Positions 3,316 through 39,200 of a stretch of DNA of 64,000 bases are shown here, in pieces. Source of the DNA: Acidithiobacillus ferrooxidans ATCC 23270 (GTDB taxonomy: Bacteria > Pseudomonadota > Gammaproteobacteria > Acidithiobacillales > Acidithiobacillaceae). Position 1 is the first letter of the stretch; each line of letters begins with the position of its first letter. A program made the translations under genes and the position numbers. Where the stretch lies: positions 1,332,001 through 1,396,000 of the forward strand of contig NC_011761.1 of assembly GCF_000021485.1 (NCBI RefSeq), given 5' to 3'. A model generated the notes under the pieces. It had not been told where the DNA came from and made no database searches. It saw nothing but the letters and a program-made list of their open reading frames with translations.

Positions 3316-3336
3316 GGCGTAGCCCGTAATAACAAT

Positions 3337-3362
3337 GGACCATCCGCAATGGCAGATGGTCC
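3337..3362 (-). terminator. Hairpin between molbindin gene and modD
   Basis: Arms GGACCATC (3337-3344) and GATGGTCC (3355-3362) pair perfectly over 8 bp around a 10-base loop. There is no long T-run after it on the minus strand, so it is either a weak terminator or attenuator for the molbindin transcript or a protein-binding site for modD. Confidence 0.35.
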
Positions 3363-3438
3363 GTGACAGCGGTTGCAGAGTGACCGGGCAGCGATGCGCT
3401 CTGTTCCGCCGGACGGTTGATCACCTGGAACAGCCGCT

Positions 3439-3645
3439 TCAGGGTTTTTCGATACTTACTTCGCTGGCTTTGATTGCCGCGAAAACCTCGTCACCCACTT
3501 TGAGTCCGAGACGTTCGACGCTCCGTGTGGTAATCACGGAGGTGATTATACCGGCGGAAGTTTCCACCTCGACTTCCGAAACCGCCCCACCTTTGATGAT
3601 CTCAATCACTTTACCCTTCAGATGATTACGCAGACTGGATTCCAT
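3439..3645 (-). CDS. mop: Molbindin (TOBE/Mop domain protein)
   Basis: A 68-residue single Mop/TOBE domain. The pattern SSLRNHLKGKVIEIIKGG followed by EVEVETSAG and a GLKVGDEVFAAIKASEV end is typical of molybdate-binding molbindins, which oligomerise and store molybdate or tungstate in the cytoplasm. Length fits the family (about 67-70 residues). The start is an ATG with an AGGAGG-like site just upstream on the minus strand. Its neighbour modD and the nif-type operon make a role in molybdenum homeostasis for nitrogenase likely. Confidence 0.88.
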   Translation of the reverse strand: MESSLRNHLKGKVIEIIKGGAVSEVEVETSAGIITSVITTRSVERLGLKVGDEVFAAIKASEVSIEKP

Positions 3646-3711
3646 GACCGCCTCCTGATTAACTATAAGAGGATAGTAGTATAGTCTGCCTGGGCGGGCA
3701 GGGATAGGCGA

Positions 3712-7901: not shown

Positions 7902-8809
7902 ATGCTGACGTGCCCCCCGGCGTAGTTTTCGGCGAATGTCTGGTCGATGATTTTGGAGAGGCGCAACGACTTGGCGGCGCACCCTTCAATGTTGCGCAAC
8001 ACCTCCATGCGCTGGGGGTGGCATCCGTCTTTGTCAGCAGGGTAGGGCGGGATGCTTCGGGGCAACACATTTTGCAGCACATGCGGGACTGGGGGATGTC
8101 CACGAATGACGTGACAGTGGACGCGTTGCTTCCCACCGGCCGGGTACGGGTGACGGCGGACGCCCGACAGGGGCACCACTTCGAGATTCTGCCGCATCAG
8201 GCCTACGACGCCATTGGTATGCCCTCCAGCGTGATCGCCCCCATTCCCTGGCTCTATCACGGTAGTCTCGCCTTGCGGGAAGACGGGCCATCGCGGGCGA
8301 CCTGGCGCCAGTTGCGCGCCCGTGCCCAGTGGCGCTTTGTGGACATCAATCTGCGCGATCCCTGGTGGAATCCGGAATTACTGGCCGAGATCATACGGGG
8401 TTCATCTATACTAAAATGTAATACGGAGGAACTGGAGCAGATCATTCGCACTTACGAACTCCCCCCGGCCTCGACCTTGCGGGAAGCGATGCAGATGGTG
8501 GCCGGACATTTTCATGTGCAAGCCGTCTTGCTGACCCGCGGTGCTGAGGGTGCCGCTTATGGGGACGGGACCAATTTTTACGAGGCGGAAGCACCCCCCA
8601 CGGTGGTCCAGGACACCGTAGGGGCTGGGGACGCCTTCGCCGCAGGCTGGTTCTGGAGCCTGTTTCGCGGTGATGCCATTGCGCGGCGATTGCAGAGGGC
8701 AGGGGAATTGGCAGCGGCCATTTGTGCGATATCCGGCGCCATACCGGATCAACCCGAGTTTTACCGGGCCATAATGGCGCGATGGGCCAAGGAGGACGGA
8801 TTTGGCTGA
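7898..8809 (+). CDS. PfkB-family sugar kinase, probable fructokinase
   Basis: A 303-residue ribokinase/PfkB family kinase. The N-terminal GGAPFNVAQHLHALG segment is the sugar-binding signature, and DTVGAGDAFAAG near residue 240 carries the anion hole and catalytic Asp. Family members phosphorylate fructose, ribose or related sugars with ATP. Placement between a channel gene (4-bp overlap) and sucrose-phosphate synthase (8-bp overlap) makes fructose from sucrose cleavage the likely substrate. It would regenerate fructose 6-phosphate for the synthase encoded next. Confidence 0.88.
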   Translation: MNADVPPGVVFGECLVDDFGEAQRLGGAPFNVAQHLHALGVASVFVSRVGRDASGQHILQHMRDWGMSTNDVTVDALLPTGRVRVTADARQGHHFEILPHQAYDAIGMPSSVIAPIPWLYHGSLALREDGPSRATWRQLRARAQWRFVDINLRDPWWNPELLAEIIRGSSILKCNTEELEQIIRTYELPPASTLREAMQMVAGHFHVQAVLLTRGAEGAAYGDGTNFYEAEAPPTVVQDTVGAGDAFAAGWFWSLFRGDAIARRLQRAGELAAAICAISGAIPDQPEFYRAIMARWAKEDGFG

Positions 8810-10946: not shown

Positions 10947-13320
10947 CAATCTGCGTCGCTGTATCAGCCAAAATCCCCATTGCGTAGCCGGGCTGTTGCG
11001 ATATCTGTTCAATCTGCAACGCCCATTTCTGCTCTATACCGACTTGCAAAAGGCCATCGGCGACTTTGCCGCAGACTACGGCAGTGATGCAGACCTCGTG
11101 GTGTTGCAGGAGTTTTTCTCCAGACTGCAAGAGGCAGTGCTTGCGGAGCCTTGGATTTATCTGGCCTGGCGTCCCAGCCCTGGGCGCTGGACTTATCTGC
11201 GCATGCACTGGGAACAGCTTCATTTGGAGACACTCGCGCCGAGTGATTATCTGGCCTTTAAGGAAAGACAGGTGCTCCCCGCAAATGATCAGGAGCCGAT
11301 ACTCACCGTGGATTTCGAGGATTTCCGCGCTGCCCCCTATCACCTGCAGGATGAGGACACCATCGGACAAGGACTCATATATATGAACCGCCGTCTGGCT
11401 GGGCGACTGTTCGGGAACATCAAGACGGGGCGCCAGAGCATTCTCGACTTTTTGGCCGTGCACAAGCTCAACGGGCAATCGCTGATGGTGCATGATCAGC
11501 CGCCGGATTTTGAAGCACTACGCCAGACCGTGCAGTATCTGGCGACGCTCCCCAAGACCAAACCGTGGACGGAGTTTGCGGCGGAGATGACCTATCGCGG
11601 CTTCGCCCCCGGCTGGGGAGATACCGCCGGACGGGTGCGCGAGACCATGCGTCTGTTGATGGATCTCTTGGACGCCCCCTCGGCAGAGGGTCTGCAAGCA
11701 TTCATCGACCGTATCCCCATGATCTCCAAAATACTGATCGTGTCTATTCATGGCTGGTTCGCGCAGGACAAGGTGCTTGGACGTCCGGATACCGGCGGGC
11801 AGGTCGTTTACATTCTCGATCAGGCGCGGGCGCTGGAACAGGAAATGCGCCAGCGTCTGGCCCGTCAGGGGGTGGATATCGTACCCCGTATTCTGATCGC
11901 CACCCGCCTGATTCCCAATGCCGACGGCACCACTTGCGACCAGCGCCTGGAACCCGTCCATGGCGCCGATAATGTACAGATTCTCCGTGTACCCTTTCGC
12001 TATGCCAATGGCGAAATATTGCCGCAGTGGATCTCCCGCTTCAATGTCTGGCCCTGGCTGGAACGCTACGCCGATGACCTCGAACGGGAAACCCTGGCGG
12101 AATTTGGTCGTCGTCCTGACCTGATTATCGGCAATTACTCCGATGGTAATCTGGTGGCCACCATCCTCAGTGCGCGGCTGAATGTCACCCAATGCAACAT
12201 CGCCCACGCGTTGGAGAAGAGCAAATACCTCTATAGTGACCTCTACTGGCGCGATCACGATGCCAGCCATCATTTTGCTTGCCAGTTCACCGCGGACCTC
12301 ATCGCCATGAATTCTTCCGACATTATCGTTACCAGCACCTATCAGGAAATCGCCGGGAACGACCGCGAGGTGGGCCAGTACGAAGGATATCAGAATTACA
12401 GCCTCCCCGGACTGTATCGGGTGGAAAACGGGATTGACGTCTTCGATACCAAATTCAATATCGTTTCTCCGGGGGCCGACGCCCACTATTATTTTCCCTA
12501 TTCCGCCAGCGAAGCACGTCTGCGTTATCTGCACGACGATATTGATGCGTTGCTCTTTGGCGAGGAGCCCGCCGCGGATCGGCGCGGCGTACTCAAGGAA
12601 CGGGATAAACCCATCATATTCAGTATGGCGCGCATGGACCACATCAAAAATCTCAGCGGGCTGGCTGAGATTTTTGGTGCCTCGGAACGTCTGCGCAAAC
12701 TGGCCAACCTGGTGATCATCGGTGGCCATGTCGATCTGCAGAATTCTCAGGACGAGGAGGAGGGGGCGCAGATCCAGCGGATGCACGATATTATGGATGC
12801 GCATCAACTCGATGGTCAGATGCGCTGGATAGGCACTTTACTCGAGAAGAATGTGGCGGGGGAACTCTACCGGGTTATTGGTGATTCCCGTGGATGCTTC
12901 GTCCAGCCCGCACTCTTTGAAGCCTTCGGATTGACGGTGATTGAAGCCATGAGCTCGGGTCTGCCGGTTTTTGCCACTCGCTTCGGCGGACCGCTGGAAA
13001 TCATCGAAGACGGTATTTCCGGCTTTCATATCGACCCCAATAACCAGCAGGAGACGGCAGAAAAGCTGGCGGACTTCCTGGAAGCTGCGGCCGCCGATAT
13101 CCGTGTCTGGGAGACCATTTCCGATGGCGCACTGGCGCGGGTCGGCGCGCACTATACCTGGGGCAATTACGCCGCGCAGATGATGACTCTGGCGCGGATT
13201 TTCGGCTTCTGGCGCTTCATGCTCAAGGCCGATCGTCACGCCGCCCGTCGTTATTTGCAGATGTTTCAGCACTTGCAATGGCGGCCTCTGGCCCATGCGG
13301 TGCCGCTGGGGGAGTCATGA
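10939..13320 (+). CDS. susA: Sucrose synthase
   Basis: A 793-residue protein of the sucrose synthase family. It has an N-terminal regulatory region of about 250 residues, then the GT4 catalytic domain beginning at ILIVSIHGWFAQ with RPDTGGQVVYILDQ, HALEKSKYLYSD and the E-x7-E motif FEAFGLTVIEAMSSG near 661. The enzyme interconverts sucrose plus NDP with NDP-glucose plus fructose. With the preceding synthase and kinase it closes a sucrose synthesis and breakdown cycle. The frame opens at 10870, but the ATG at 10939 gives the family N-terminus and overlaps the synthase stop by 8 bases. Confidence 0.93.
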   Translation: MPDNLRRCISQNPHCVAGLLRYLFNLQRPFLLYTDLQKAIGDFAADYGSDADLVVLQEFFSRLQEAVLAEPWIYLAWRPSPGRWTYLRMHWEQLHLETLAPSDYLAFKERQVLPANDQEPILTVDFEDFRAAPYHLQDEDTIGQGLIYMNRRLAGRLFGNIKTGRQSILDFLAVHKLNGQSLMVHDQPPDFEALRQTVQYLATLPKTKPWTEFAAEMTYRGFAPGWGDTAGRVRETMRLLMDLLDAPSAEGLQAFIDRIPMISKILIVSIHGWFAQDKVLGRPDTGGQVVYILDQARALEQEMRQRLARQGVDIVPRILIATRLIPNADGTTCDQRLEPVHGADNVQILRVPFRYANGEILPQWISRFNVWPWLERYADDLERETLAEFGRRPDLIIGNYSDGNLVATILSARLNVTQCNIAHALEKSKYLYSDLYWRDHDASHHFACQFTADLIAMNSSDIIVTSTYQEIAGNDREVGQYEGYQNYSLPGLYRVENGIDVFDTKFNIVSPGADAHYYFPYSASEARLRYLHDDIDALLFGEEPAADRRGVLKERDKPIIFSMARMDHIKNLSGLAEIFGASERLRKLANLVIIGGHVDLQNSQDEEEGAQIQRMHDIMDAHQLDGQMRWIGTLLEKNVAGELYRVIGDSRGCFVQPALFEAFGLTVIEAMSSGLPVFATRFGGPLEIIEDGISGFHIDPNNQQETAEKLADFLEAAAADIRVWETISDGALARVGAHYTWGNYAAQMMTLARIFGFWRFMLKADRHAARRYLQMFQHLQWRPLAHAVPLGES

Positions 13321-14954: not shown

Positions 14955-15029
14955 GGGCGGTTAGCTCAGCGGTAGAGCACTGCCTTCACACGGCAGGGGT
15001 CGCAGGTTCAAACCCTGCACCGCCCACCA
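14955..15029 (+). tRNA. tRNA-Val (anticodon CAC)
   Basis: A complete cloverleaf can be drawn: acceptor GGGCGGT (14955-14961) pairs with ACCGCCC (15019-15025), the D arm contains TAGCTCAGCGGTAGAGCA, the anticodon stem CTGCC/GGCAG encloses TTCACAC with anticodon CAC, and the T loop is GGTTCAAACC. CCA is encoded. An integrase gene begins its 3' end 20 bp downstream, so the tRNA 3' half is the probable attachment site of the element to the right. Confidence 0.96.
15000..15029. other. Probable attachment site (attL) in tRNA-Val 3' end
   Basis: Tyrosine-recombinase elements commonly insert in the 3' half of tRNA genes and restore it. Here the integrase sits next to an intact tRNA 3' end, so the T arm and acceptor stem are the likely core. 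The exact limits cannot be given because the matching second copy is not in this window; I searched by eye for the T-arm and acceptor sequence and did not find it. Confidence 0.55.
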
Positions 15030-15048: not shown

Positions 15049-16044
15049 TCACCTACCCAAGGCCGGTTTTTTGTTGAGTGCATTGTTGAGTGCATTTTCC
15101 GAAAAAGCACGCTCCAAGGCGATGGATTGCGCGTCGGTTTGCAGGTGCGCGTAACGCTCTGTCATCTTAGTGGATGAGTGACCTAGGATACGGCTGATGG
15201 TGTACAGGTCTGCTCCTGATGCTAGCAGGATTGATGCGCAAGAGTGCCGTAGATCGTGAAAGTGCAAGTGCGGCAATCCGGCCTTCTCGCGGGCGCGACG
15301 AAATCCAGACTTAAGCCCTTCGGCGTTGATGGGGAGAGGGATGAATGGTAGCCAGAGGCGCATCGGTCCGATGATGGGTACGGTACGCGTTTTAAGCGTT
15401 TTAGTGTTCCCAGCGCGGATGGTGATCGTCGTTTCCCCTACGTCCTCGGCTTTGAGCTTCGTGATTTCGCCGCGACGGCAGCCGGTAAATAGAGCAATCC
15501 AAATCGCGGCAGCGACCGGATCGGATGCGTGGCTGGCGAGTTCGTTGACCTGCTCCAGCGTTAGGTAGATATGCCGCTCGTTGTGCTCCGGCAGGCGCTT
15601 GATCCTGGCACCGTAGTTCTCTGGGGTCAGTTCCTGTTCCCAGGCCAGCGTGAGGGCCTTCTTGAGCGCGCCCAGACTGCGGTTGATCGTCGCGGGCGCA
15701 TAGGCTCCGGTCATGTCGCGGATAATCATCGCGGCGCATTTTGGGGCCTCTGAGGCGGTGTATTGGGCGAGCCAGGGGGTGATGCGGGCAGCATGGAATC
15801 GGGCGGTCTCCGGGCTACGCAGGTGCTCCAGATGCTTGAGGTACAAGGGCATGACAGCGGCAAGCGGTGGATCGCCGGCACGCTCCGGCAGGGGTCTTGC
15901 CGATGTCAGTTCGGCTCGAAGTCTGGCTTCGACTTGCTTGGCGTCACGCGCAGACGACCCGGCTGGCAGGATGCGATGTAGGCGTCTGCCGTCAACTTGA
16001 ACTTGGACATTTCGACGATCTTTGTTGTCGATCCAGATGGACAC
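15049..16044 (-). CDS. int: Tyrosine recombinase (integrase) of the integrated element
   Basis: A 331-residue site-specific tyrosine recombinase. Catalytic residues are all present: Arg190 in TGCRRGE, His263 and Arg266 in HDLRH, His289 in LGHSS and the nucleophile Tyr298 in ERYAHL. An N-terminal SAM-like core-binding region (about 60-150) precedes the catalytic domain. The start is GTG at 16044 with AAGGA 6 bases before it. Its end lies 20 bp from the tRNA-Val 3' terminus. It is the last gene of a chain of overlapping small genes that includes an AlpA-like gene, so integration and excision are probably expressed together. Confidence 0.94.
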   Translation of the reverse strand: MSIWIDNKDRRNVQVQVDGRRLHRILPAGSSARDAKQVEARLRAELTSARPLPERAGDPPLAAVMPLYLKHLEHLRSPETARFHAARITPWLAQYTASEAPKCAAMIIRDMTGAYAPATINRSLGALKKALTLAWEQELTPENYGARIKRLPEHNERHIYLTLEQVNELASHASDPVAAAIWIALFTGCRRGEITKLKAEDVGETTITIRAGNTKTLKTRTVPIIGPMRLWLPFIPLPINAEGLKSGFRRAREKAGLPHLHFHDLRHSCASILLASGADLYTISRILGHSSTKMTERYAHLQTDAQSIALERAFSENALNNALNKKPALGR

Positions 16045-17086: not shown

Positions 17087-17365
17087 ATGTTCATTTCTGA
17101 TGATGTTTTGAGGAAACTAAAAGAAAGGCATCATGTTGAGTCGCACGAAGTTTCGGAGTGCTTGAACAACAGAGAAGGTAAGCTGCTGAAAGATACGCGC
17201 CAGCAACACTGCACGGTGCCGGAAACTTACTGGTTCATCGCCCAAACAAAAAAGGCGAGGTGGCTGAAGGTCGTCTTGATGTTTGTGGATGGAGATCCCC
17301 ATATCAAGAGCGCATTTGAGCCGAACGAGGAAGAATTTCGTATATACAGAAAATATGGAGAGTAG
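17087..17365 (+). CDS. BrnT/DUF4258-like small protein, probable toxin
   Basis: A 92-residue protein resembling a group often auto-named ADP-ribosyl-(dinitrogen reductase) hydrolase and related in size and layout to BrnT RNase toxins. Typical parts are the start FISDDVLRKLKERHHV, the EVSECLNNREGKLL turn, TYWFIAQTKKARWLKVV and the end AFEPNEEEFRIYRKYG. The old enzyme name should not be trusted. The next gene starts 2 bp later and encodes a ribbon-helix-helix-type protein, giving toxin-then-antitoxin order as in BrnTA. A GAAGGAGG ribosome site precedes the ATG. The toxin role is inferred from arrangement. Confidence 0.7.
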   Translation: MFISDDVLRKLKERHHVESHEVSECLNNREGKLLKDTRQQHCTVPETYWFIAQTKKARWLKVVLMFVDGDPHIKSAFEPNEEEFRIYRKYGE

Positions 17366-17367
17366 CA

Positions 17368-17706
17368 ATGAGCAGCAGTGTGGACAACACAGAAGCTTGG
17401 GAGAATCGAGAGCTTGGTGCCGATGAGCAGTTCGTTACCGTGGCGGATGAAAGCGTAGAAACCGCCCTGGACGAAGCGTGCGGGACCAAGTTGATCTCTA
17501 TTCGTATGTCCAAAGAGATGATTGATTGGCTAAAACTGATCGGTGAACGGAATGGTGGCCTGCGGTATCAGACCCTCATCAAAACCGTTTTGGCTCGCTT
17601 TATCGAGAGCGAGCAGAAGATTATATTGAACGAGATGTTGGCCGAAAAGCAGAAGGCGCTGGCTGCCGAAGATGCGCCGGAGCCGCAACGCAAGGTGGCT
17701 GGTTAA
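17368..17706 (+). CDS. BrnA/CopG-like antitoxin
   Basis: A 112-residue protein with an acidic N-terminus (about 1-40) and a central ribbon-helix-helix-like part: LISIRMSKEMIDWLKLIGE followed by RYQTLIKTVLARFIESE. Antitoxins of this type bind DNA through the beta ribbon and neutralise the toxin through the other end. It starts 2 bp after the BrnT-like gene. The ATG at 17368 has a GGAGAG site inside the end of that gene. No terminator of strength is visible after it; a G-rich run follows at 17760. Confidence 0.7.
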   Translation: MSSSVDNTEAWENRELGADEQFVTVADESVETALDEACGTKLISIRMSKEMIDWLKLIGERNGGLRYQTLIKTVLARFIESEQKIILNEMLAEKQKALAAEDAPEPQRKVAG

Positions 17707-17837: not shown

Positions 17838-18692
17838 CTAATTCCCTTCACCATCCGGGGAATGAAACAACGGTGTCCGGATTTTACCTGTAGCTCCTTC
17901 CATAGATGTGAGAAAGTTCTCTACATCCTCCGGAACATCCCATCGGACGACGTTTTCTGCATACCGGTCTAATAACGATACAATTGGCTTCATGTTTTTA
18001 ATCTCTTCTCCTGATATAACTACATAGCTATTAACCGTTTCATTCCTTTCACGCGCAGCTACGTCAAAAATCAGCATTTTGCTCATTGCCTCTTGCCGCT
18101 TTTGAGAAAAGGTTCCAAGTCTGAGATCAACCGATTCGATCAGGTGAAGCTTCCCGTTCTTAAGAGCAAATTCAGCTTTTATGCCGAAGTCTTCAGCTAC
18201 CGGAAAACGTGTAACAATCATGTGGTTATTAATATCTTTATCGTCATACCCTAGCCATCTATACGCTTTAAATGTTTCTTTAATGTCAGAAAATAGTCGA
18301 TCAGTGACATTTCTTTTGGATTTCTTTCTTTCCGGGTTCACCAGAGATAAAAGAATATTTTCGACCATGCTCTCATATCCTTCTTCCCCTACATAAGAAA
18401 ACATGCATGGGTCCGGAAAGCATTTGACCGCCCCAAACTTGGAGAGCACATTAAATATGTCTTCTCCCGTGCATCCCACCTGCTTCAAAAATGCCGGGAT
18501 AGTAACGGAAAGGTCCTTGATTTCATTGATGTTTGCTGCAGGATGTACAGCCAATACCTTCCGGAGATTGTCCGCAATATGGACGCGCACATCTCCTGAT
18601 GGCAGAAAGGATACGATGCCCACATTCACTTGTTCGTTCCGGAAAGGGTACGGCACGTAATATAGAACGGAGTAGTAAGCTAGCTGTCCCAT
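17838..18692 (-). CDS. DUF3037 domain protein
   Basis: A 284-residue protein that begins with the DUF3037 pattern (YYSVLYYVPYPFRNEQVNVGIV) and has no membrane segment. DUF3037 has no established activity; family members are frequently encoded beside HipA-like kinases, as here, where the kinase gene ends 1 bp upstream. Base composition is lower in GC than the flanking core genes. It is the third gene of an HTH, kinase, DUF3037 operon, so it may be the kinase target, a regulator of its activity or the effector. Confidence 0.8.
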   Translation of the reverse strand: MGQLAYYSVLYYVPYPFRNEQVNVGIVSFLPSGDVRVHIADNLRKVLAVHPAANINEIKDLSVTIPAFLKQVGCTGEDIFNVLSKFGAVKCFPDPCMFSYVGEEGYESMVENILLSLVNPERKKSKRNVTDRLFSDIKETFKAYRWLGYDDKDINNHMIVTRFPVAEDFGIKAEFALKNGKLHLIESVDLRLGTFSQKRQEAMSKMLIFDVAARERNETVNSYVVISGEEIKNMKPIVSLLDRYAENVVRWDVPEDVENFLTSMEGATGKIRTPLFHSPDGEGN

Positions 18693-18693
18693 G

Positions 18694-19416
18694 TTAAGGC
18701 ACCTGATGGATGCGAGCCGCTCTGGCTTGGTCCCACGATTGTATCACTTGATTGATCCAAGCGGGATCCTGGTTGGGTATCCATTCTATCGGAGCGGCGT
18801 CTAACCATATTCTCACAGTCGCTCCCGGAATAGCGGCGATGTCCAAGTTTGTCTGGAGCGCGGAGTTCGAATCCCAATCGCCGCGTTGCTTGAGCGCATT
18901 TATCGTTGAAAGACTGTTGTTCGGGGTTTGCCACGGCCAGCCCGCAAACGTGGCAGGGTCGCATGCATGGGACCAGTCAAATGCCAATGCAACCATATGA
19001 TTGCTCGGAAGCTGACGGACAAGGATATTGTTGATATGACGATCAATGTTGGGGAGGAAATAGTCCAGAGAGAGCATTCGGGAGAGGGGCGAAGCGAGGC
19101 TTCTGAGTATGCTATAAATAAATACCGGGTTGGGACTGAGGTACCCAAGAAGGTTGGTGTCTTGATCGATCCGGGAACCGAAGGCTAGTGTCCCATTGGG
19201 ACGCTCTATCACATCCCAGCCGGGGGTCGGGATCCGGACGGTGGAGCACAAATGGTAGCAAAACCATTCGGTGATTGGGAGAAGTGCGCCATCATCAATG
19301 GTTTTGATCGCGTATTGTTCTCCGTTCAATGCGAATCCGGTCAGCCTAAGAGTGGCCGTACCGGAAAATCTCTGCTCCCTTACAATTTTGATTGGGAATA
19401 TGCCTATCTGATTCAT
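18694..19416 (-). CDS. HipA-like kinase
   Basis: A 240-residue protein of the HipA-like kinase group, shorter than classical HipA (about 440). It keeps the likely ATP-binding lysine (Lys38 in YAIKT), the catalytic loop NIDRHINN (123-130, Asp125, Asn130) and the metal Asp147 in FDWSHA. It therefore looks catalytically competent. HipA kinases phosphorylate translation factors and cause dormancy; some group members act in small toxin-antitoxin operons. The start overlaps the stop of the HTH gene by 4 bases (ATGA), and DUF3037 follows 1 bp after its end. The substrate is unknown. Confidence 0.85.
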   Translation of the reverse strand: MNQIGIFPIKIVREQRFSGTATLRLTGFALNGEQYAIKTIDDGALLPITEWFCYHLCSTVRIPTPGWDVIERPNGTLAFGSRIDQDTNLLGYLSPNPVFIYSILRSLASPLSRMLSLDYFLPNIDRHINNILVRQLPSNHMVALAFDWSHACDPATFAGWPWQTPNNSLSTINALKQRGDWDSNSALQTNLDIAAIPGATVRIWLDAAPIEWIPNQDPAWINQVIQSWDQARAARIHQVP

Positions 19417-19907
19417 TTCAGGTCCTTACTGATCCTGCTTACCGCTCCCAGAAGAAACTGGATATCTTCGTCGGTCAGGGATTTCTCAGAAGATCTCTGT
19501 AGGATGATCTCGACCAGCGCTCTTGCAGCGGGGGGAGACTGAACCCAGATATTTTCTAGGCCCGGAGGAGCCCGGAAGGAACCTTCCCCAGTGCTGCCTG
19601 GCTGCTCCTCTGAGTGGTCCTGGTCCATCCGGGCAGACGGAAGGTTTTTCCTTGTCAGGCGAGGGCTAATCTCACTAGTGGAAACGCCAAGCACGTCGGA
19701 ATAGACCAGAACAGCTTTCCAGGTTAGCGCCGTTACTCCAGACAGGTGCTGCGATACAACGGCTTTCGTGACCCCCATTTTGTTCGCCACCGCCTCCTGG
19801 GTGAGCCCTTTTGGTCTTCTCCCCCATAGAGCTTTTAGGCGTGCAGCATCCGCTAGCTCGTCAGGCGTTCTTTCATCTTTCCCGCGTCGCCGCTTCGGTT
19901 TTTCCAT
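19413..19907 (-). CDS. XRE-family HTH regulator of the kinase operon
   Basis: A 164-residue protein with an XRE/Cro HTH at about 35-60 (TQEAVANKMGVTKAVVSQHLSG) and a C-terminal half without recognised domain. The frame is open to 20018, but the ATG at 19907 is chosen because the operators at 19944-19977 and the divergent promoter would otherwise be inside the gene. It is the first gene of the HTH, HipA-like, DUF3037 operon, parallel to HipB in hipBA. It also stands where a phage repressor would stand, opposite a Cro-like gene. It is the best candidate for binding TAGCGSCGCTA. Confidence 0.8.
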   Translation of the reverse strand: MEKPKRRRGKDERTPDELADAARLKALWGRRPKGLTQEAVANKMGVTKAVVSQHLSGVTALTWKAVLVYSDVLGVSTSEISPRLTRKNLPSARMDQDHSEEQPGSTGEGSFRAPPGLENIWVQSPPAARALVEIILQRSSEKSLTDEDIQFLLGAVSRISKDLK

Positions 19908-19937
19908 GACCTGAGTATCGGTGATGACGGGGCAACG

Positions 19938-19977
19938 TTCGACTAGCGGCGCTTGCCTATTATAAATAGCGGCGCTA
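19938..19977. promoter_or_regulatory. Divergent promoters with two operator copies
   Basis: Operators TAGCGGCGCTT (19944-19954) and TAGCGGCGCTA (19967-19977) flank overlapping -10 boxes: TATAAA on the plus strand (19961-19966) and TATAAT on the minus strand (19964-19959). TTCGAC (19938-19943) could be the plus-strand -35, 17 bp away. One operator occupies the spacer and one lies just past the -10, the same geometry as at 16930-16965. Confidence 0.72.
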
Positions 19978-19988
19978 TTCTTATTCCC

Positions 19989-20213
19989 ATGGATATCAGT
20001 TCTTACTGCCAGACTCATTCACAAACCCTCCTTGCGAGAAAGCTAGGGGTGACGCCGGGGCTTGTTTCTCAATGGATAACAGGTCGAACTGTTATTACGG
20101 CTGAACGAGCCGCCCAAATCGAGCTCTCCACTAATGGCGCCGTCACCCGTGCCGAACTCCGGCCCGACATCTTCGGCCCCTTGGATGAGATCAGAGACCG
20201 GGGAGCCACATGA
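19989..20213 (+). CDS. Cro/YdaS-like DNA-binding protein
   Basis: A 74-residue protein with a single HTH (TLLARKLGVTPGLVSQWITG) and the family end AERAAQIELSTNGAVTRAELRPDIFG split over two segments, typical of YdaS/Cro proteins of prophages. The ATG at 19989 is only about 22 bp downstream of a -10 box, so the leader is very short. It diverges from the XRE regulator and leads the replication genes, the position of cro in lambda-like switches. Binding to the neighbouring TAGCGSCGCTA sites is inferred. Confidence 0.82.
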   Translation: MDISSYCQTHSQTLLARKLGVTPGLVSQWITGRTVITAERAAQIELSTNGAVTRAELRPDIFGPLDEIRDRGAT

Positions 20214-20341
20214 GACACCATTCGACTACTACGACTTCTATGCCAGGAAACGGGGGCACCCGGATTGCGTTTTCAGCCGCGCGATCATTCCTGGCGCCCA
20301 TTCGCAGGGCTGAGAAGGCTGGAAGAGACCATGCCAATTGA
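20210..20341 (+). CDS. Possible 43-residue coupling peptide between cro-like and replication genes
   Basis: An ATG overlapping the stop of the Cro-like gene (ATGA, 20210-20213) opens a 43-codon frame that runs into the start of the next gene, overlapping it by 11 bases. GGGGAG precedes it. The peptide is basic (several Arg and Lys in the C-terminal half), with no motif. The double overlap suggests translation, but so short a frame could be chance. Confidence 0.35.
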   Translation: MRHHSTTTTSMPGNGGTRIAFSAARSFLAPIRRAEKAGRDHAN

Positions 20342-21326
20342 CGCACAAGAACTGGATTGTTCAGCACTTTCGTCCCCACCTGTACCGGCAGACATTGATC
20401 TGCGTTCCTATTGCTGGATGAAGCTGGACCTGAGCCGACTCCATTCCAGCGACTTCATCCACCTGGCCAGCAATGAGGAGTTCGGTGCAGCGGTAAAGCT
20501 ATGGACCGAATCCATGCGGCAGGTGCCTGCTGGCAGTCTTCCCAACGATGACAAGATCCTGGCGTGCCTCGCTGGGTATCGAGGTTCTCCCCGACGGTGG
20601 ATGAAAGTCAAGACTATTGCACTGCATGGCTTCTCCCTTTGCTCCGATGGCCGCCTGTACCATCCCGTGCTTTCGGAAATGGTACTGGATGCCTGGGGCA
20701 ACAAGACCCAACAGCCGACATCAAGCCCCTCGGACCCGCGCGCCAAGGATCGCGAGCGCCTTCGTCGCTGGCGGGCGGCACAAAGGGCCAGGCAGGAAAA
20801 CGCTCAGTCTAACAGAACAGAGGAAGCGCACTCTACCCAAGCCGATGAAACGATTGAAACGTTTCAAGGCCGTTTCACTGAAACGTTTCCTGAAACGGCT
20901 GAAACGTTTCATAGAAAAGAAGAAGAGGGAGAAAAGAGAGAGAGAAGAAACGTGGATAACGTTTCCGAAACGGCGGGTGAAACGTTTCAGGAAACGCCGC
21001 TCACAGAGCCCTCTCCACTGCCGACTGCAACCCGCGAAGGCACGTTGTGCAAGAAACTACGGGGGCTTGGCGTCCGTGCGGCCCCTCACATGGTCGTTGT
21101 GCAGGAGATGTGCGCCCGTCATTCCGATGAGCACATCCTGGCGGCGGCGGAGATCGCCCTGGAGAAAAAAGGCAGCGGCATCCACGTCGGCTACATCGCC
21201 GCGATGCTGAAAGACGCGGAGAAATCTTCAGGGAAAGGAGGAAAGAACCAGCCGGCAGCGGGGCCGCCCAACCGCTCTCTCCTGCCGCCCGTCGCCGTTG
21301 CCGAATCTCATTTCATTGCCCTGTAG
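20331..21326 (+). CDS. DUF1376/YdaU-like replication protein with embedded iterons
   Basis: A 331-residue protein. Residues about 20-130 match DUF1376 (YdaU type): DLRSYCWMKLDLSRL and a DDKILACLAGY segment. The middle (about 145-225) is low-complexity and repeats ETF-like triplets because its DNA carries GAAACGTTTC repeats. The C-terminal 90 residues include a helical part (MVVVQEMCARHSDEHILAAAE). Position before a DnaC-like gene matches the O-P order of lambdoid phages, so an origin-binding role is likely. The ATG at 20331 follows GGAAGAG; an upstream TTG is less likely. Confidence 0.72.
   Translation: MPIDAQELDCSALSSPPVPADIDLRSYCWMKLDLSRLHSSDFIHLASNEEFGAAVKLWTESMRQVPAGSLPNDDKILACLAGYRGSPRRWMKVKTIALHGFSLCSDGRLYHPVLSEMVLDAWGNKTQQPTSSPSDPRAKDRERLRRWRAAQRARQENAQSNRTEEAHSTQADETIETFQGRFTETFPETAETFHRKEEEGEKRERRNVDNVSETAGETFQETPLTEPSPLPTATREGTLCKKLRGLGVRAAPHMVVVQEMCARHSDEHILAAAEIALEKKGSGIHVGYIAAMLKDAEKSSGKGGKNQPAAGPPNRSLLPPVAVAESHFIAL
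20847..20996. repeat. GAAACGTTTC iterons, candidate replication origin
   Basis: Four perfect palindromes GAAACGTTTC lie at 20856-20865, 20880-20889, 20901-20910 and 20979-20988. Seven half sites (GAAACG or CGTTTC) are at 20847, 20871, 20892, 20947, 20960, 20967 and 20991. The first three full sites are spaced 24 and 21 bp, about two helical turns. A run of almost only purines, 20911-20950, separates the third and fourth. The array lies inside the DUF1376 gene, as the lambda origin lies inside gene O. Confidence 0.75.
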
Positions 21327-21336
21327 GAGAGCTGCC

Positions 21337-22197
21337 ATGGCAATACCGAAGAAGTCCGATATCCACCATCAGCCATCCGTCCATGCGGGCGATGCTGCCA
21401 GGGATCTCCTTGCCAAATGGGGATTCGACCCTGCCAATGAGGCGATCCTGCCCGACCGTCATCCCCAGTACCGCGAGTGCGCGCGCCACGGCCGCTATCC
21501 GATCTCCATGGTGGATGAGCGGGACGTCATCCGCTACCTGTCCCCTGTTTGTCCGGTGTGCGCGGCGGAGCATGCCTCCCGTCGGCTCATGGAGAGCGCG
21601 GCCATCCCCAGTCGCTACATCGACTGCGGCTTCCACAACTATGTGGTCGAGGTCCCGGGTCAGCAGACGGCCCTCGACGTCTGCCGGGACTACGCAGATC
21701 ATTTCGAAGAGCGCGCCCAAAAGGGATCCTGCCTCATCCTCTGCGGGAATCCCGGCACGGGCAAGAACCACCTGGCGTCTGCCATCGCCCACGTGGTGCT
21801 GGCCAAAGGGCACAGCGTGCTCCAGGTCACGGCCTACGACATCATTGCCCGGATCCGCCAGACCTGGCAGCGGGGAATCGGCAACAGCACGGAGCTGGAG
21901 GTCATCCGCGGGTTTGCGGAAGTGGGCCTGCTCATCATCGACGAGGTCGGGAAAACCTTCGGCAGCGATGGAGAGCGGGTGCATCTCTTCGAGGTGATCG
22001 ATCACCGGTACCGCGACCTGAAACCGACCCTCATCCTGTCCAACGAGAATATGGAGGGCGTGGAGAAATACCTGGGTCCGGCCGCCTTCGACCGGCTGTG
22101 CCAAAATGGCGGCCTGCTACTCTTTGACTGGCAGAGCCATCGCCGGGGGAGGGGGTGCACATCCGACACGGCTCTCTGTCTGCGGGGTGAATCATGA
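21337..22197 (+). CDS. DnaC-like helicase loader ATPase
   Basis: A 286-residue AAA+ protein. An N-terminal region with a Cys pair (PVCPVC near 70) precedes the Walker A GNPGTGKN (137-144), where Asn after the lysine matches DnaC of E. coli, and a Walker B LLIIDEVG near 203. DnaC-type proteins load the replicative helicase at an origin. The ATG at 21337 has an AGGAG site; an upstream GTG/TTG frame extension is ignored. It follows the DUF1376 gene by 10 bp and overlaps the next gene by ATGA. Confidence 0.88.
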   Translation: MAIPKKSDIHHQPSVHAGDAARDLLAKWGFDPANEAILPDRHPQYRECARHGRYPISMVDERDVIRYLSPVCPVCAAEHASRRLMESAAIPSRYIDCGFHNYVVEVPGQQTALDVCRDYADHFEERAQKGSCLILCGNPGTGKNHLASAIAHVVLAKGHSVLQVTAYDIIARIRQTWQRGIGNSTELEVIRGFAEVGLLIIDEVGKTFGSDGERVHLFEVIDHRYRDLKPTLILSNENMEGVEKYLGPAAFDRLCQNGGLLLFDWQSHRRGRGCTSDTALCLRGES

Positions 22198-23390
22198 ACA
22201 GAAATCATGAGCAGCAACTGCTGATAGAGCCCCTCTCAGAAGGCCACCCGATGCTGAACACGCATCCTGTCCGCTCCGCTTGCGCCCGAAGCGCGACCAG
22301 GAACATGGCATCCTACCTGATCGACCTCGGCCCATTCTTTTCAGAGCCAAAGCAGTTCCTGGAGGGCCTGCGCGCGAGTGACTTTGCGCCGAAGGGATAC
22401 GACTGCAGCGCACAGGTGGCCATCCGCCTCATGCGCTGGTCGCAAAGCATCCAGTTGACCCCCCGCCAAAATCACGTGATGAACGAGATCATCTCTGAGG
22501 CCATTCGGCGCGGAGCCGCGATCATCGAATCCAAAATCAGGACGGCTGAATGGTCTATACCAGATCATCGCGACGATCATCACGATCTTGCCGTCACGGC
22601 GGCCACCAAGGCATTGCAACACTTTACGGAGAAACACGACCTGGCGACGGTGCCGCACCCCAATATTGCGACATTCGTTGATGTGCATACCCGGTTTGCT
22701 TCCCGTGATGCCATGGAAGATTTCATGTATCGAAAACGGCTCGATGCGGAATCCGTGTTGCCCCACGAGCCGACGTTCTCGAAAGCATCGCTGGAAAGAG
22801 TCATCCGGCAGAGGCGGTCGGAACTCAAGCATCTCTCCGGAGAAAAACGGCAGAAGAAGATGCGGGAGTTGGAAAGAATGGAAGCCACGCTTCATGGAGC
22901 GAGAACAGAGGTTCGCCTGGAATATGCGCTGGAAGAAAGGGGAGACCATGAGGCACGAGGCAGTAGCGAGCGACTTTCGCTGGAGGACCAGGTGTCCATC
23001 GCAGTTGGGGGTATCGACCTGGAAGAGGAAGATGACAGTTATGAGATGCCCGCCGACCAGCGGGAGTTTCTGGACCTTCTGATTCAGGTGGGCAAGCAGC
23101 AAATCGCTGCAAGGCAGCTCATCCCTTACCTGGCCGAGGCCAGGGAATACCGTGCCATTCTCGGTCTTCTTCAGGTGCTGAAGAACACCGATGAAATCGG
23201 CCTTGAAGCAGGTTCGCTGCGTGAACTGCTGGGCCATCAAAACCTGGCCGATATTCGAAAGAAGGTCCTGCGCATTGGCCGGGCCGACAGCCGTGAAGTG
23301 GTCTCCCTTTTCGAGTCGTGCAAGGCATACCTTCGTGGAGAGAATGGTGAACGTGAGGTGTTGGCTGCACTGCAGGTCGCTTCCATATGA
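22194..23390 (+). CDS. Unknown 398-residue protein in the replication operon
   Basis: A soluble, charged protein with 4-base overlaps to both neighbours, so it belongs to the replication operon. The segment around residues 125-180 (HHDLAVTAATKALQHF, then NIATFVDVHTRFASRDAMEDF) faintly recalls sigma-factor region 2, and 200-260 is strongly helical and basic (coiled-coil-like). A DNA-binding or polymerase-linked role is possible, but the resemblance is too weak for a name. Confidence 0.65.
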   Translation: MNRNHEQQLLIEPLSEGHPMLNTHPVRSACARSATRNMASYLIDLGPFFSEPKQFLEGLRASDFAPKGYDCSAQVAIRLMRWSQSIQLTPRQNHVMNEIISEAIRRGAAIIESKIRTAEWSIPDHRDDHHDLAVTAATKALQHFTEKHDLATVPHPNIATFVDVHTRFASRDAMEDFMYRKRLDAESVLPHEPTFSKASLERVIRQRRSELKHLSGEKRQKKMRELERMEATLHGARTEVRLEYALEERGDHEARGSSERLSLEDQVSIAVGGIDLEEEDDSYEMPADQREFLDLLIQVGKQQIAARQLIPYLAEAREYRAILGLLQVLKNTDEIGLEAGSLRELLGHQNLADIRKKVLRIGRADSREVVSLFESCKAYLRGENGEREVLAALQVASI

Positions 23391-24339: not shown

Positions 24340-24834
24340 ATGGCAGGAGTGAATAAAGTGATCTTGTTGGGCCATCTGGGGCGAGACCCGGAGATGCGGT
24401 ACATGCCAGACGGGACGGCGGTCGCCAATATGACCATCGCCACGTCGGAGTCCTACAAGGATCGGGACGGCAACCGCCAGGAGCGTACCGAGTGGCACCG
24501 CGTTGCACTCTTCGCGAGGACGGCAGAAGTCGCTGGAGAATATCTTCGGAAGGGAAGCCAGGCGTATATCGAGGGACGTATCCGCACCAGAAAATGGACC
24601 GATAAGGACGGTCAGGAGCGGTATTCCACGGAGATCGTGGGCGACCAGCTCCAGTTGATTGGTGGGCGCCGCGATACGCCAGAGAGTGGCAGTCCCGCAC
24701 CACAGCATGGTGGTGGGGGTGGCGGGGACATGGGGGCTGCACCGATGGAGGAATTTGACGACGATATTCCCTTCATCACCAAGGCGGAAACCATCTGTCA
24801 ACCACGCTGGCGGCTTCCGCGAGTGCGGTTCTGA
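24340..24834 (+). CDS. ssb: Single-stranded DNA-binding protein with altered C-terminus
   Basis: A 164-residue SSB. The OB fold is complete ([21 protein letters not shown] and [21 protein letters not shown], each as expected), followed by a glycine-rich linker. In normal SSB the acidic tip (DDDIPF) is the last part and docks partner proteins. Here EFDDDIPF is followed by about 20 more residues ending in basic RLPRVRF. A small indel after the tip codons may have removed the original stop. The protein could still bind DNA, but partner binding may be blocked. An upstream GATCTATACC motif suggests co-regulation with plsC-like and ardC-like genes. Confidence 0.88.
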
Positions 24835-25798: not shown

Positions 25799-28700
25799 AT
25801 GAATGATACTGAACTGCTTGATGAATCAGAGTCCAAGAAACCGCATCTGACCATAGCCGTCGCATTGGGTGCGAAGCTCAATCTTGCCGATTTTCAAAAT
25901 GCTGTCCCGATGCTCAGGGAGCTAAGCATTAACAATGATTCTGTTGAGGACGAGAGAGAACTCGACCTCAGTATCGTATCGGCTCCCACATTCCTGAAAA
26001 CCAAGCAATGGCATATCGATGCCGTAAGTGCCGGCCAACGTTGTCACATCACCGATTTGGATGTGCAACTCGATGGCGCTCTGCTGTCTCGCCTCACAGA
26101 AGCCGAGACGGCGACGGTTTCGTTCGTCTTGCGCCGCCGTAGCGAAGCCCGCGAAGAATTGGCCCGGCTTGAACAGACCGTGGAACTCCTGCCACGGAAC
26201 CAATGGGGCGGTTTATCGCACCTGCCAGATATGGTTGCCGCTTTCGTTCAGCCAAACGAGCCCGCAGTCGAACGTGTGCTCAAGCAAACAGCCGATGTCC
26301 TGCGCAAGAACGGCAAGAACCCGGCTCTGGACGGCTATAAAGGCGGTTCGAAGCGTGCCTGGGAACTAACTTCAGGCATCTGGAGCGCAGTGGCGGCAAT
26401 GGGGCTGGATTATGCGCTGCCACCTGCCAGCTTTGAGCATATCGGCCAGAAAGTGCGTGGACCGGGCCAGATTTCCGAGTCAGGTTTGGCCACCTGCCTC
26501 GATCTCGCGTTGTTCTTCTGTTCGGCTATCGAGCAGGCCGGTTTGAACCCGTTGCTGGTCTTTACACGGGGTCATGTCTTTGCAGGCGTGTGGCTCAAGA
26601 ACGAAGAGTTTTCGACCTCCGTGGTCGATGACATAACGGCCTTGCGCAAACGGATCAAGCTCAAGGAATTGGTGCTATTCGAAACCACGGTTGCAACACA
26701 CCGACCAGCGCCGACTTTCTCCTATGCGGTGCAACTCGGGGCGCAGCATGTGGCCGGGGACGAAGAAGAGGCCTTTGAGCTTGCCGTGGACATACGTCGG
26801 ACGCGGCTACAGCGGATCAAGCCGCTGGCCAGCGCCGAGGCGCACGCGGTAGTGGCTCCTATCGAGACCGCACCGGTTATCGAGCCTGTTTTCGATGAGG
26901 CGCCCGATCTGCCGGAAGATGAAACTGTTATCGAACCGGACCCGGCAACGCTGAATCCCAAGGATCGCCTAGCACGCTGGCAACGTAAGTTGTTGGACCT
27001 GTCCCTACGCAACAACCTACTGAATTTTCGTGGCAGCAAGAAGGCGATCAAGCTGGAGGCACCCGATCCTGGCGCCTTGGAAGATTTGCTATCGGATGGC
27101 CAACCCGTGCGTCTGCTCGCTAGGCCCAGCCTCATGGATGGCACCGATCCACGGAATCAGGCGATCCATGAAGGTCGTGAGCGGGAGAATGTGCGACGGG
27201 AACATGCTCGCGATGCTCTGCAACGCCGCGAGGTGTTCGTGGACCTGCCGCAGGAAGAACTGGATACTCGATTCGTGGAATTGTTTCGCTCGGCCCGCTC
27301 CACTTTGCAGGAGGGTGGCGCGAACACCCTGTTTCTCGCCATCGGTTTTCTGTCCTGGACTCGCGAAGACAAGGCCAGCCAGCGTTATCGCGCACCGCTG
27401 ATACTTGTCCCTGTGAACTTGAGCCGCAAGAATATGCGTTCGGGCTTCACCTTAACCCTTCACGACGACGAGCCCCGCTTCAATCCGACGTTGATCGAAA
27501 TGCTGCGCCAGGACTTCAAACTGAACCTGGGCGTGGCCGACGGCGAACTGCCCAGGGACGGTGCCGGCCTGGATGTGGCGGGCATCTGGAAGTCGGTTGC
27601 CCACGCAATCAAGGACATCAAGGGATGGGAGGTAACGGAAGAAGTCGTGCTGGCGATGTTCTCCTTCGCCAAGTATCTGATGTGGAAGGATCTGACCGAG
27701 CGTACCGAGCAGCTACGCGAAAACCCGGTCGTTCGGCACCTGATCGATACGCCGCGCGAGTGTTACCCCCCAGGGATCGATTTTCCGAATCCGAGAAAGC
27801 TCGACATCGAATTACCGCCCGAGCGAACCTTTTGCCCCTTGCCCGCCGATTCCTCGCAACTTTCCGCCGTCATGGCGGCTGCGCGCGGCAAGGACTTCGT
27901 CTTGGTCGGGCCACCCGGTACGGGCAAGAGCCAGACCATCTCCAACCTGATCGCCCAATGTCTGGCGGAAGACAAGCGGGTATTGTTCGTTTCGGAGAAG
28001 ATCGCGGCCCTTGATGTCGTCCACCGGCGACTACGTGAGGTTGGTCTTGGCGAGTTCTGCCTGGAGCTTCACTCCAACAAGGCCAGGAAACTCGATGTGC
28101 TGGTCCAGTTCCAGAAGACCTGGGAGGCAAAGGGGACAGTCGACCCGAAAGTCTGGCAGGCAGAGGCACTGCGTTTGCGAAACCTGCGCGATCAGCTCAA
28201 CGGCTATGTCGAACGACTGCACCATCGGCATGCTAACGGTATGACCATTTACGAGGCGATCGGCCGGGTTGTCGATGGCGCGGATGTTCCAGACCTTGGG
28301 CTGTCCTGGAACGCGCCCCAAGACCACGACTTCACTGCCATAGAGGCCCTCAGGGAAGTGGTAGACCGCCTGGAAGTCAACGCCCGAGCCGTGGGACGGA
28401 ATGCTCTGCTCACCCACCCGCTCGCAGCCATTGGCCACGACGACTGGTCTCCGAGTTGGCAGCACGGGCTGATCGACGCTGCACGTAGCGTGATTTCTGC
28501 TGCGCAAGCGGTGGCACAAGCTTATGAAAGCTTCTCCCAGGCAGTCGGATTGCCATGGCTACCTCTAAACCGGCGTGTCCGGGGCCCGTTGGCCATCCTT
28601 GCCCGAACCTTGCCCCAGGCTGCCGGGCGGGATTGGCGATTCGTCTTGCGGCCTGAGACGAAAACGCTGGCCGACAGGTTGCAAGAAGCTATCGCGTTGC

Positions 28701-31700
28701 TGGCCGAGCACCAGGAACATAGTGCGGCGCTCTCGCCAACGTGGCCGGATTCGGTGGTCGGTGCCTGCAAGCATGGATTGCAGTTATTGCAGAGTCGACG
28801 GGAAACCCATGCCCAGCTTGGCCTGCCCTGGGCCATTGCGACAGTCCAGGAACTCAAGAAGGGATTGGGGTTGCTGGAAAATATCGACCAAGAGGTGAAA
28901 CAACTTTCCGTCCAGTACGGAGAGCAGGTAGAGCAATTGAACGTCACCCAACTCCTGCGCGAGTGGGCCAAGGCCGAGAAATCCATATGGCCGATATCCC
29001 GGTTAGCGAAACGCAAGATCCGCAAGGTCTTCGACGCCATGTTAATGGGCGAGGGCGAACCGGATGTCGCCAAGGACCTCCGCACCTTAGTCAAGATTCG
29101 CGCCTTGCGTTCGGAAGCGATGGCGCTCGACCTGGATACCGATGGTCTATGGGTCGGCCTGAAAACCAAGCCCGGCCTGGCGTATTGCGCCCTGCGCTTT
29201 CAGGCCGCGCTGAGCGCCGCTAGAAGCGAACAAAGCTGGGAAGACACGGGTTTTGAGCCGATTGCCGATGGCCATTGCGGCGAGCGCCTTGCCCAGGAGT
29301 TGGCCCGCATGCGGACTTTGTGCGCCTTGGATAGCCAGTTGGCGGCGCTGGAATACCTGCCCTCAGCCACCGAATCTCTGTGGGCGGGGCTGGCGACGCG
29401 AAGCGAAATATTGGCGGCCGCGCTGCGCTTCCAGGAGGCCACGTCAGCCATACGGGAATCCGGCGCCTTGACCGGCGACCTCGATGCCGTGGCGTCAGGA
29501 GGCTGCGGCACCGCACTATCGGCGGACTATCGGCATCTGCGCGAGCGGGCCGTGGTCGAACAACGACTCGCCGCCTACGACGATCTGATAGACGTCACGG
29601 CTGGTCTTTGGAATGGACTGAAGACCCGCGTCGGCGAGGTGGAGAAGGCGTTGAAGTTCCAGTCCTCCATCTCGGTGGTCATCGCGAATCTCGCCACTAC
29701 GCCGGAGGACATCGAGTCCATCAAGACTGCACTGGAACGGCTCATCGGCGCAGGCAACGCGCTACTGGAACCAAACGGTCCTATCGCGAGAGTCGGCGAA
29801 GCCTACCTCCATGCCTGGGGTAGCCTGCGACCGGCAATCGACCGTCTGGCTGCTGTGGGTGGTTTCTCGAATGCGGCCAAGAACGAATTCGGCGAACAGA
29901 CCCTTGACGACCTTATTCAGCGCTGCGATGCAATCCTTCAAGCTGATAGCCGGCTGCATGCCTGGTGCGCTTGGCGCAAGGTCAGCGGCCAGGGCATGGC
30001 ACTGGGCCTGGCGCCATTGGTTACCGGCATTGAGAACGGTGCGGTGGCCGATGGCCAGGTACGCCGTGCGTTCGAAACGGACTACAGCCGCTGGTGGCTC
30101 AACGCCGTGGTGGATGAAGAACCGGTGATCCGTTCATTTGTCTCGGCGGAGCACGAAAAGCGCATCGACGATTTCCGGGCGCTGGACGAGCGATTCACCG
30201 CGCTGACCCGCGACTGGATCCGGGCGCGACTCTGTGCTGGAATGCCGAGCCAAGACGATGTCACGCGAAACTCTGAGTGGGGCATCCTGCGTCACGAGAT
30301 GAACAAGAAGAAGCGCCACATGCCGTTGCGCGAGCTGATGACCAGCATCCCGACGGTGCTGACCAAGCTGATGCCCTGCCTGCTCATGAGTCCTTTGTCG
30401 ATCGCCCAATACCTGGCCGCCAACGCCACCAGCTTCGACGTGGTGGTCTTTGACGAGGCCTCCCAGATACCGGTCTGGGATGCGGTCGGCGCCATCGCGC
30501 GAGGCAAACAAGTGGTCATGGTGGGCGACCCCAAGCAACTGCCGCCGACCAATTTCTTCGACCGGAGCGAATCGGATCTGGACGACGAAGACGTGGAAGG
30601 CGACCTGGAAAGCATCCTGGACGAATGCCTGGGCGCCAGCCTGCCCATGATGAACTTGGCGTGGCACTACCGCAGCCGCAACGAAAGCCTGATCGCCTTC
30701 TCCAACCACCGCTATTACGGCGGCTCGCTGGTCACCTTCCCATCGCCCGTCACCGAAGACCGGGCAGTGAGCTTCCACCCCGTCAAAGGCGTTTATGAAA
30801 AAGGCGGGGCTCGAATCAACAAGCCCGAAGCCATGGCCCTAGTCACCGATCTGGTTGGGCGCCTCAAATCGCCCGGATTCCGCGAATCAAAGCTGACCAT
30901 CGGCGTGGTCACCTTCAACACCGAACAACAGGGCCTCATCGAAGACCTGCTGGACGAAGAGCGGCGCAAAGACCCCGCTATCGAGCCTTGGTTCTCCGAT
31001 ATTGAGCTGGAGCCGGTATTCGTCAAAAACCTGGAAAGTGTCCAAGGCGACGAGCGCGACATCATGTATTTCTCGATTACCTACGGCCCGGACCTTCACG
31101 GCGCGGTATCGATGAACTTCGGCCCCATGAACCGGGCCGGCGGAGAACGGCGCCTGAACGTTGCGATCACCCGCGCCCGCCACGAACTGCGTGTGTTTTC
31201 CAGCCTCAAGGCCGAGCAGATGGACCTGGCACGTACCCAGGCTATGGGCGTGCGCGACCTGAAGCTATTCCTCGAATTCGCTGAACGTGGCACGCGTGCC
31301 CTGGCAGAGAGCACCGAAGGCAGTCGAGGCAATTTCGAAAGCCCGTTCGAGGAGGCGGTTGCCGCCGCACTCGCCAGGAAAGGTTGGGAACTGCACACCC
31401 AGATCGGTGCCTCGACCTTCCGCATCGACCTGGCCGTCGTCCACCCCGACGCCAAAGGCGTCTACCTGAGCGGTATTGAATGCGACGGCGCCACGTACCA
31501 CCGCTCGGCCACCGCCCGCGACCGCGACAAACTTCGGGAACAGGTACTGCGCGGTCTAGGCTGGGATATCTTGCGAGTCTGGTCGACCGACTGGTGGATC
31601 GATGCCGCCGGCACCTTGGACAAACTGGATGCCAAACTGCGTGTGTTGCTCGAAATAAGCCGGGTGAAGCGCGCGGAAGCGGCGGAGAAAGAGGCAGCTC

Positions 31701-36442: not shown

Positions 36443-36451
36443 GGCAGAATC

Positions 36452-39102: not shown

Positions 39103-39200
39103 GCGTCTCTCTTGCGGTCGGTAGTTGTTATAGATGTGGCTTGAATATAAGGCATTGGAGGCACGGCGGGAAGGAGCGCGGCGTGGGACTGAACTGCCTT

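Follow-up and report, generated by a model that had tools for sequence, protein, structure and literature searches.

The analysis of a 64-kb stretch of the Acidithiobacillus ferrooxidans ATCC 23270 genome (hereafter the window; bases 1332001-1396000 of the single contig of 2,982,397 bp) points to a replication origin of an ICE that is embedded in the very gene coding for its initiator. We suggest, with a probability of about 0.85, that this origin is formed by positions 20847-20996 of the window, where the N-domain of a DUF1376 protein would bind an array of iterons and the C-domain of the same protein would recruit a helicase loader. The features concerned are listed in Table 1; positions are counted from the first base of the window, except for the genome coordinates of the mobile elements.

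Table 1. Features of the candidate replication module and of the left end of its carrier element (positions in the window).
Feature	Position	Strand	Remarks
tRNA-Val(CAC), attL side of ICEAfe2/iMGE4	14955..15029	+	found here; listed in Table 1 of PMC10322971
Tyrosine integrase of the element	15049..16044	-	PF00589, 3.2e-24
DUF1376 gene (331 aa) holding the internal candidate origin	20331..21326	+	PF07120; phrog_22470
DUF1376 N-domain, winged-helix-like, predicted to bind iterons	20394..20714	+	AF2 pLDDT 88.6; iteron class tracks the domain
Iteron block 1	20847..20910	.	six sites: half, full, half, full, half, full
Site centres of block 1	20851.5, 20860.5, 20871.5, 20884.5, 20896.5, 20905.5
Purine tract, candidate unwinding element	20913..20950	+	38 nt uninterrupted, 63% A
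Iteron block 2	20947..20996	.	five sites, one a full palindrome
Site centres of block 2	20951.5, 20960.5, 20971.5, 20983.5, 20995.5
C-domain, separate module, predicted helicase-loader recruiter	21027..21323	+	96% identity to L004
DnaC-like helicase loader	21337..22197	+	phrog_50, 3.5e-62
SSB protein, same operon region	24340..24834	+	PF00436, 3.1e-39

The initiator gene and its operon

By score, the gene is a member of the DUF1376/YdaU family (PF07120): its product reached 30.3 bits (E 5.6e-7) against a gathering cut-off of 30.1, and 32.6 bits in a genome-wide search. It also matched phrog_22470, annotated as 'replication protein' (3.4e-33). Replication or primosomal labels had been given to its relatives in PHROGs before, so what is new here is the candidate origin, its location and its coupling to the N-domain; in the DUF1376/YdaU literature outside subscription journals, no origin, iteron or binding specificity was found described.

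The AF2 model of the N-domain shows a winged-helix-like order of elements. Foldseek returned nothing significant for this model (best E 0.48), and a search of solved structures by sequence gave no match. In a second structure comparison, ranks 1-3 and 6 were taken by RepA_N initiators at weak scores (Z 3.9-4.7), one of them being a Rep-DNA complex, and the winged helices of ORC2, among others, ranked below. This model-based likeness is no more than suggestive of a RepA_N-like winged-helix fold. The fold of the C-domain (AF2 pLDDT 68) was set aside as uninformative, the matches being generic AAA+ lid-like helices at Z of at most 5.5.

The helicase-loader gene and one for a D12 adenine methylase are separated by a gene for a 398-aa protein (22194-23390, +), which is kept at the same place in the loci L004, L382, L383 and L384 and had no match in Pfam, PHROGs or NCBIfam.

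The carrier element

In Table 1 of PMC10322971, iMGE4 of this strain is placed at 1346955..1522548 and listed with tRNA-Val(CAC), Int, a Trb T4SS and ParAB. The left end of the element within the window agrees with this record in its tRNA-Val att site, its integrase and its coordinates. The att repeats were re-found at 1346996-1347029 and 1522515-1522548; the second one repeats the 3' end of tRNA-Val with one mismatch and ends exactly at the published end of the element. Also, a PF14384-type antitoxin gene (17368-17706) agrees with TA 9 of ICEAfe2 (PMC4226512). Judging by the coordinates and att sites, the carrier is most probably ICEAfe2/iMGE4, a candidate ICE of 176 kb and not a prophage, and the DUF1376 gene lies about 5 kb inside its left end. 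The features expected of an ICE include the att repeats and integrase found here, and a Trb T4SS that is taken solely from the table cited above. The consulted portions of PMC10322971 describe the element as primarily uncharacterised and mention no replicon on it; they place ICEAfe1 at 909149-1200493, by which a location in that element was ruled out.

Other genes of the region deserve a brief mention. A BrnA-type antitoxin gene with a probable toxin gene upstream (17087-17706, +) and DUF3037, HipA-like and HipB-like genes (17838-20018, -) are situated between the integrase and the replication module. Farther on, a gene at 25799-32395 (+) encodes a 2198-aa protein with DUF4011, AAA helicase domains, an MTES_1575 nuclease and DUF3320, and a full set of type I restriction-modification genes (34160-39276, -) adjoins it; together they resemble a defence island carried by the ICE. 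On the chromosome just outside the ICE, sucrose-phosphate-synthase-like and sucrose-synthase-like genes are adjacent (8802-13320, +).

The array of half-sites and palindromes

An earlier note made from the letters of this DNA had described four palindromes and seven half-sites within 150 bp, inside coding sequence ahead of a helicase-loader gene and with a purine run adjacent, and all of these were recovered. The segment contains 15 GAAACG half-sites, eight of which pair into four exact GAAACGTTTC palindromes at 20856, 20880, 20901 and 20979; the seven single half-sites are located at 20847, 20892, 20947, 20967 and 20991 on the forward strand and at 20871 and 20960 on the reverse strand. The whole 2.98-Mb genome holds only seven copies of GAAACGTTTC, the four of the array included. 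The density of half-sites in the gene is far above chance: against the 15 observed, dinucleotide shuffles of the gene gave a mean of 0.8 (maximum 4), 5000 draws of synonymous codons a mean of 2.3 (maximum 9), and permutation of the gene's own synonymous codons a mean of 3.8 (maximum 10).

Taken together, half-sites and palindromes make up 11 sites in blocks of six and five that flank the purine tract, with centres about one helical turn apart (9, 11, 13, 12 and 9 bp, then a gap of 46 bp, then 9, 11, 12 and 12 bp). The near two-turn spacing proposed before applies to the full palindromes (24, 21 and then 78 bp), and the array as a whole is finer. As for the ETF-like triplets ascribed to the repeats, E-T is encoded by eight of the nine forward half-sites, all in one frame, while three single half-sites (20871, 20947 and 20960) are in another register and encode RF, RNV and NVS, so that the repetition belongs to the DNA and not to the protein. 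The tract inside the 46-bp gap is the longest purine run of the window. Ranked by stability among stretches of 38 bp, it belongs to the weakest 2% in the whole window and to the weakest 0.2% in the replication operon (20-24.9 kb).

Conservation of the array at the DNA level

The array is conserved as DNA among close relatives. At identical residues, synonymous differences from L001 were counted at 1 of 24 positions in the iterons versus 92 of 196 elsewhere (p 1.5e-5); the corresponding values were 0 of 23 versus 48 of 230 for L016, and 0 of 22 versus 49 of 181 for L002. When all bases were compared with L001, 5 of 82 differed in the iterons and 48 of 104 in the remaining linker. On these counts, the iterons are under selection as DNA.

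It might be proposed that the origin was functional in phage ancestors and that in the ICE, which is normally integrated, it is a relic or replicates rarely. We consider this unlikely, because the iterons are under strong purifying selection in the elements of Acidithiobacillus, which speaks for their being in use in these elements at present.

Coupled replacement of N-domain and iterons

Relatives of the DUF1376 gene were found in 9 of the 17 Acidithiobacillus genomes searched, the window's own included. Loci with close N-domains (L001, L002, L003, L008, L009 and L016) keep GAAACG arrays. By contrast, GTAACG / GTAACGTTAC repeats, which likewise surround a purine-rich stretch, occupy the same place in L004, L005 and L006, whose N-domains share 52-61% identity with that of the window. 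The earlier note had named beforehand, as evidence against an origin, repeats that are not conserved in relatives although the protein is; they are kept where the N-domain is related, and relatives with a differing N-domain carry another iteron at the same position.

The iteron class goes with the N-domain each time. The window and L004 share 61% identity in the N-domain and 96% in the C-domain, and L001 and L005 share 57% and 96%, respectively, whereas the N-domains are 85% identical between the window and L001 and 91% between L004 and L005. In the DNA, the identity of 91% between the window and L004 begins at 21028, 32 nt past the last iteron, and continues to at least 24500; between L001 and L005, an identity of 96% begins directly after the last iteron of L001. 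L001 and L004 belong to the same strain. Two natural swaps are seen in these alignments, in which a cassette of N-domain and iterons was exchanged against a cassette of C-domain and loader.

A further combination is seen in L018, which has an N-domain 68% identical to that of the window, GTAACG repeats and a different C-domain (phrog_9474/phrog_270-like), and in which a phrog_10105 gene replaces that of the DnaC-like loader. GAAACG-type repeats are also borne by the distant L015 and by the phage locus L073, so the motif is not set by the N-domain lineage alone. A one-residue recognition code at residue 63 (R in GAAACG proteins, including L015, and H or N in GGGACA proteins) was considered and dropped, since L073 has H there.

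Some Acidithiobacillus elements (L006, at 2500-4109; L015, L019, L021 and L022; L020) have two DUF1376 genes in direct succession; the upstream copy differs in its N-domain or contains an internal TGA stop, and is possibly a displaced older initiator. Furthermore, a 739-aa DUF1376 variant with a long insert was found in an Acidithiobacillus genome (L381, 4121-6337, -). It has at least 11 GTAACG-type sites and differs both in its C-domain and in its partner gene (phrog_10105), and the same genome also has the GAAACG-type copy L009.

The swaps also bear on the possibility that the array is an autoregulatory or other regulator-binding site within the gene and not an origin. Palindromic arrays are typical of operators as well, and a gene for a HipB-like HTH regulator is present just upstream. 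However, the array lies some 520 nt into the coding sequence, whereas the vicinity of the promoter has just one isolated half-site (20247). The array is accompanied by a purine tract and a helicase loader, and in two independent swaps it changes together with the DUF1376 N-domain of the gene that holds it. An operator in place of an origin is thus improbable, and it is possible that the DUF1376 initiator also represses its own transcription.

Spread across phages and other elements

The layout recurs across phages. Scans of IMG/VR and searches of genomes yielded a non-redundant set of 152 window-like DUF1376 genes, mostly from IMG/VR phages, with the viral sample picked by similarity and not at random; 152 other ORFs from the same loci served as controls. 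By a strict test (a hexamer present on both strands, 8 bp or more between sites, no more than 1 of 100 shuffles), arrays after the domain were found in 54 of the 152 genes versus 1 of the 152 controls. A looser test gave 87 genes versus two controls, some of its top motifs (GACAGG) being one-strand tandem purine hexamers and not iterons, and the both-strand test was adopted because such hexamers scored. About two thirds of the sampled genes fail the strict test, which means that the layout is not universal or that degenerate arrays were missed.

Seven iteron classes were distinguished (GGGACA, GAAACG, GTAACG, GTSACG, GTAGACG, GGAATT and GGGGAT). On the tree of N-domains they require nine changes (minimum 6, shuffled mean 28.9), a clustering of the kind that near-copies inflate. 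In YdaU-type DUF1376 genes, a group without a matching control set, the loose test found arrays in 28 of 63, for example AACGACCGT in L035 and TTGAACG in L301. A circular Herbaspirillum record of 43 kb has GGGACA iterons inside its DUF1376 gene and lacks any other annotated initiator; it is annotated as a plasmid yet bears phage genes, and could be an excised prophage. No iteron array was scored in an Acinetobacter plasmid homologue.

A purine-rich tract (at least 32 purines of 36) is present in 40 of the 152 window-like genes and in none of the 152 controls, and it usually lies on the 3' side of the main block of iterons. Directly 3' of the iterons, many phage DUF1376 genes as well as L116, L129 and L376 have tandem purine hexamers, (GACAGG)n or (GGGACA)n, that encode GQGQGQ or TGTGTG, and YdaU-type relatives have (CCAACA)n encoding PTPTPT. 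Tandem hexamers in this position are perhaps the unwinding element of GC-rich phages.

This distribution makes it very improbable that the array serves the maintenance of the ICE, as a centromere-like (parS/ParB) site or otherwise: the listing of iMGE4 with ParAB in the table of PMC10322971 would fit such a site, but many phages share the layout, and the array tracks the N-domain of its host gene and not ParB. Finally, a repeat expansion or disordered ETF peptide repeats, arising by slippage or at the protein level with no DNA function, would fit the shared E-T frame and the low-complexity linkers present in many DUF1376 relatives, but are for practical purposes ruled out by sites on both strands and in other frames, by the almost frozen synonymous positions within the iterons, by the synonymous-codon null that fails to reach the observed count and by a spacing that is helical, not tandem.

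Comparison with known initiators and proposed mechanism

The proposed in-gene origin was compared with two known systems. In the RepA_N family (RepA of pSK41), the winged-helix N-domain binds repeats central in its own rep gene, the origin encodes the linker, and a separate C-domain recruits the replication machinery (PMC5703833). In the natural chimera pPR9, the N-domain and origin are swapped and the C-domain is kept, with replication retained and compatibility with pSK41 (PMC5703833). By analogy, pPR9 offers a direct precedent for the swaps seen among the Acidithiobacillus loci, where central in-gene repeats were likewise swapped together with the N-domain. No RepA_N Pfam domain was found in the DUF1376 protein, the search giving only DUF1376 at E 0.01. 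Unlike RepA_N, the DUF1376 genes are carried by proteobacterial phages and by an ICE, the array consists of half and full palindromes around a purine tract, and the partner is a DnaC-like loader encoded next door, whereas the C-domain of pSK41 RepA binds DnaG primase.

The earlier note had drawn a parallel with the lambda origin in gene O, and all comparative tests made, both of conservation and of replacement by another iteron, favour it. In both systems, the central part of the initiator gene holds iterons and a tract that melts easily (PMC3349717, PMC7466680), and a helicase-loader gene follows, which is P next to O in lambda and that of the DnaC-like loader here. The details differ: in lambda, four 18-bp iterons stand to one side of an AT-rich tract of 38 bp, and the DUF1376 gene has 10-bp palindromes and half-sites on both sides of a purine tract. 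No lambda O family was among the Pfam or PHROGs matches of the DUF1376 protein. The best reading of these likenesses is that DUF1376 initiators may work like lambda O and RepA_N while belonging to neither by sequence.

The following scheme is consistent with these comparisons. The DUF1376 N-domain would bind the GAAACG half-sites and the full GAAACGTTTC palindromes, and the bound sites, about one helical turn apart, would form a nucleoprotein array on either side of the weak purine-only tract. The 38-nt tract would then be opened, the C-domain would bring in the product of the next gene, the DnaC-like loader, which in turn would load the replicative helicase. N-domain and iterons move as one cassette, and C-domain, loader and downstream genes as another. 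We lean slightly towards autonomous copying of the excised ICE by this route.

Implications

On a broader scale, it is an even bet whether DUF1376 as a whole is a large unrecognised family of initiators with an in-gene origin, in which N-domain and iterons form an exchangeable 'incompatibility barcode', and whether Acidithiobacillus ICEs use it to replicate vegetatively in theta mode after excision. In this broader proposal, the seven iteron classes would mark compatibility groups, and several phages, phage-plasmids and ICEs could replicate side by side in one cell.

If the in-gene origin is confirmed, a widespread domain of unknown function would gain a function and a DNA target, and both origin and recognition motif would become readable from the sequence in many phages and mobile elements. 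The natural domain-swap pairs would provide a system for studying how the specificity of winged-helix initiators and the compatibility of elements change. The replicon may be of use for shuttle vectors in a genus with few tools. For biomining bacteria, the analysis suggests a candidate ICE with a phage-type replicon, which would affect the stability of the ICE.
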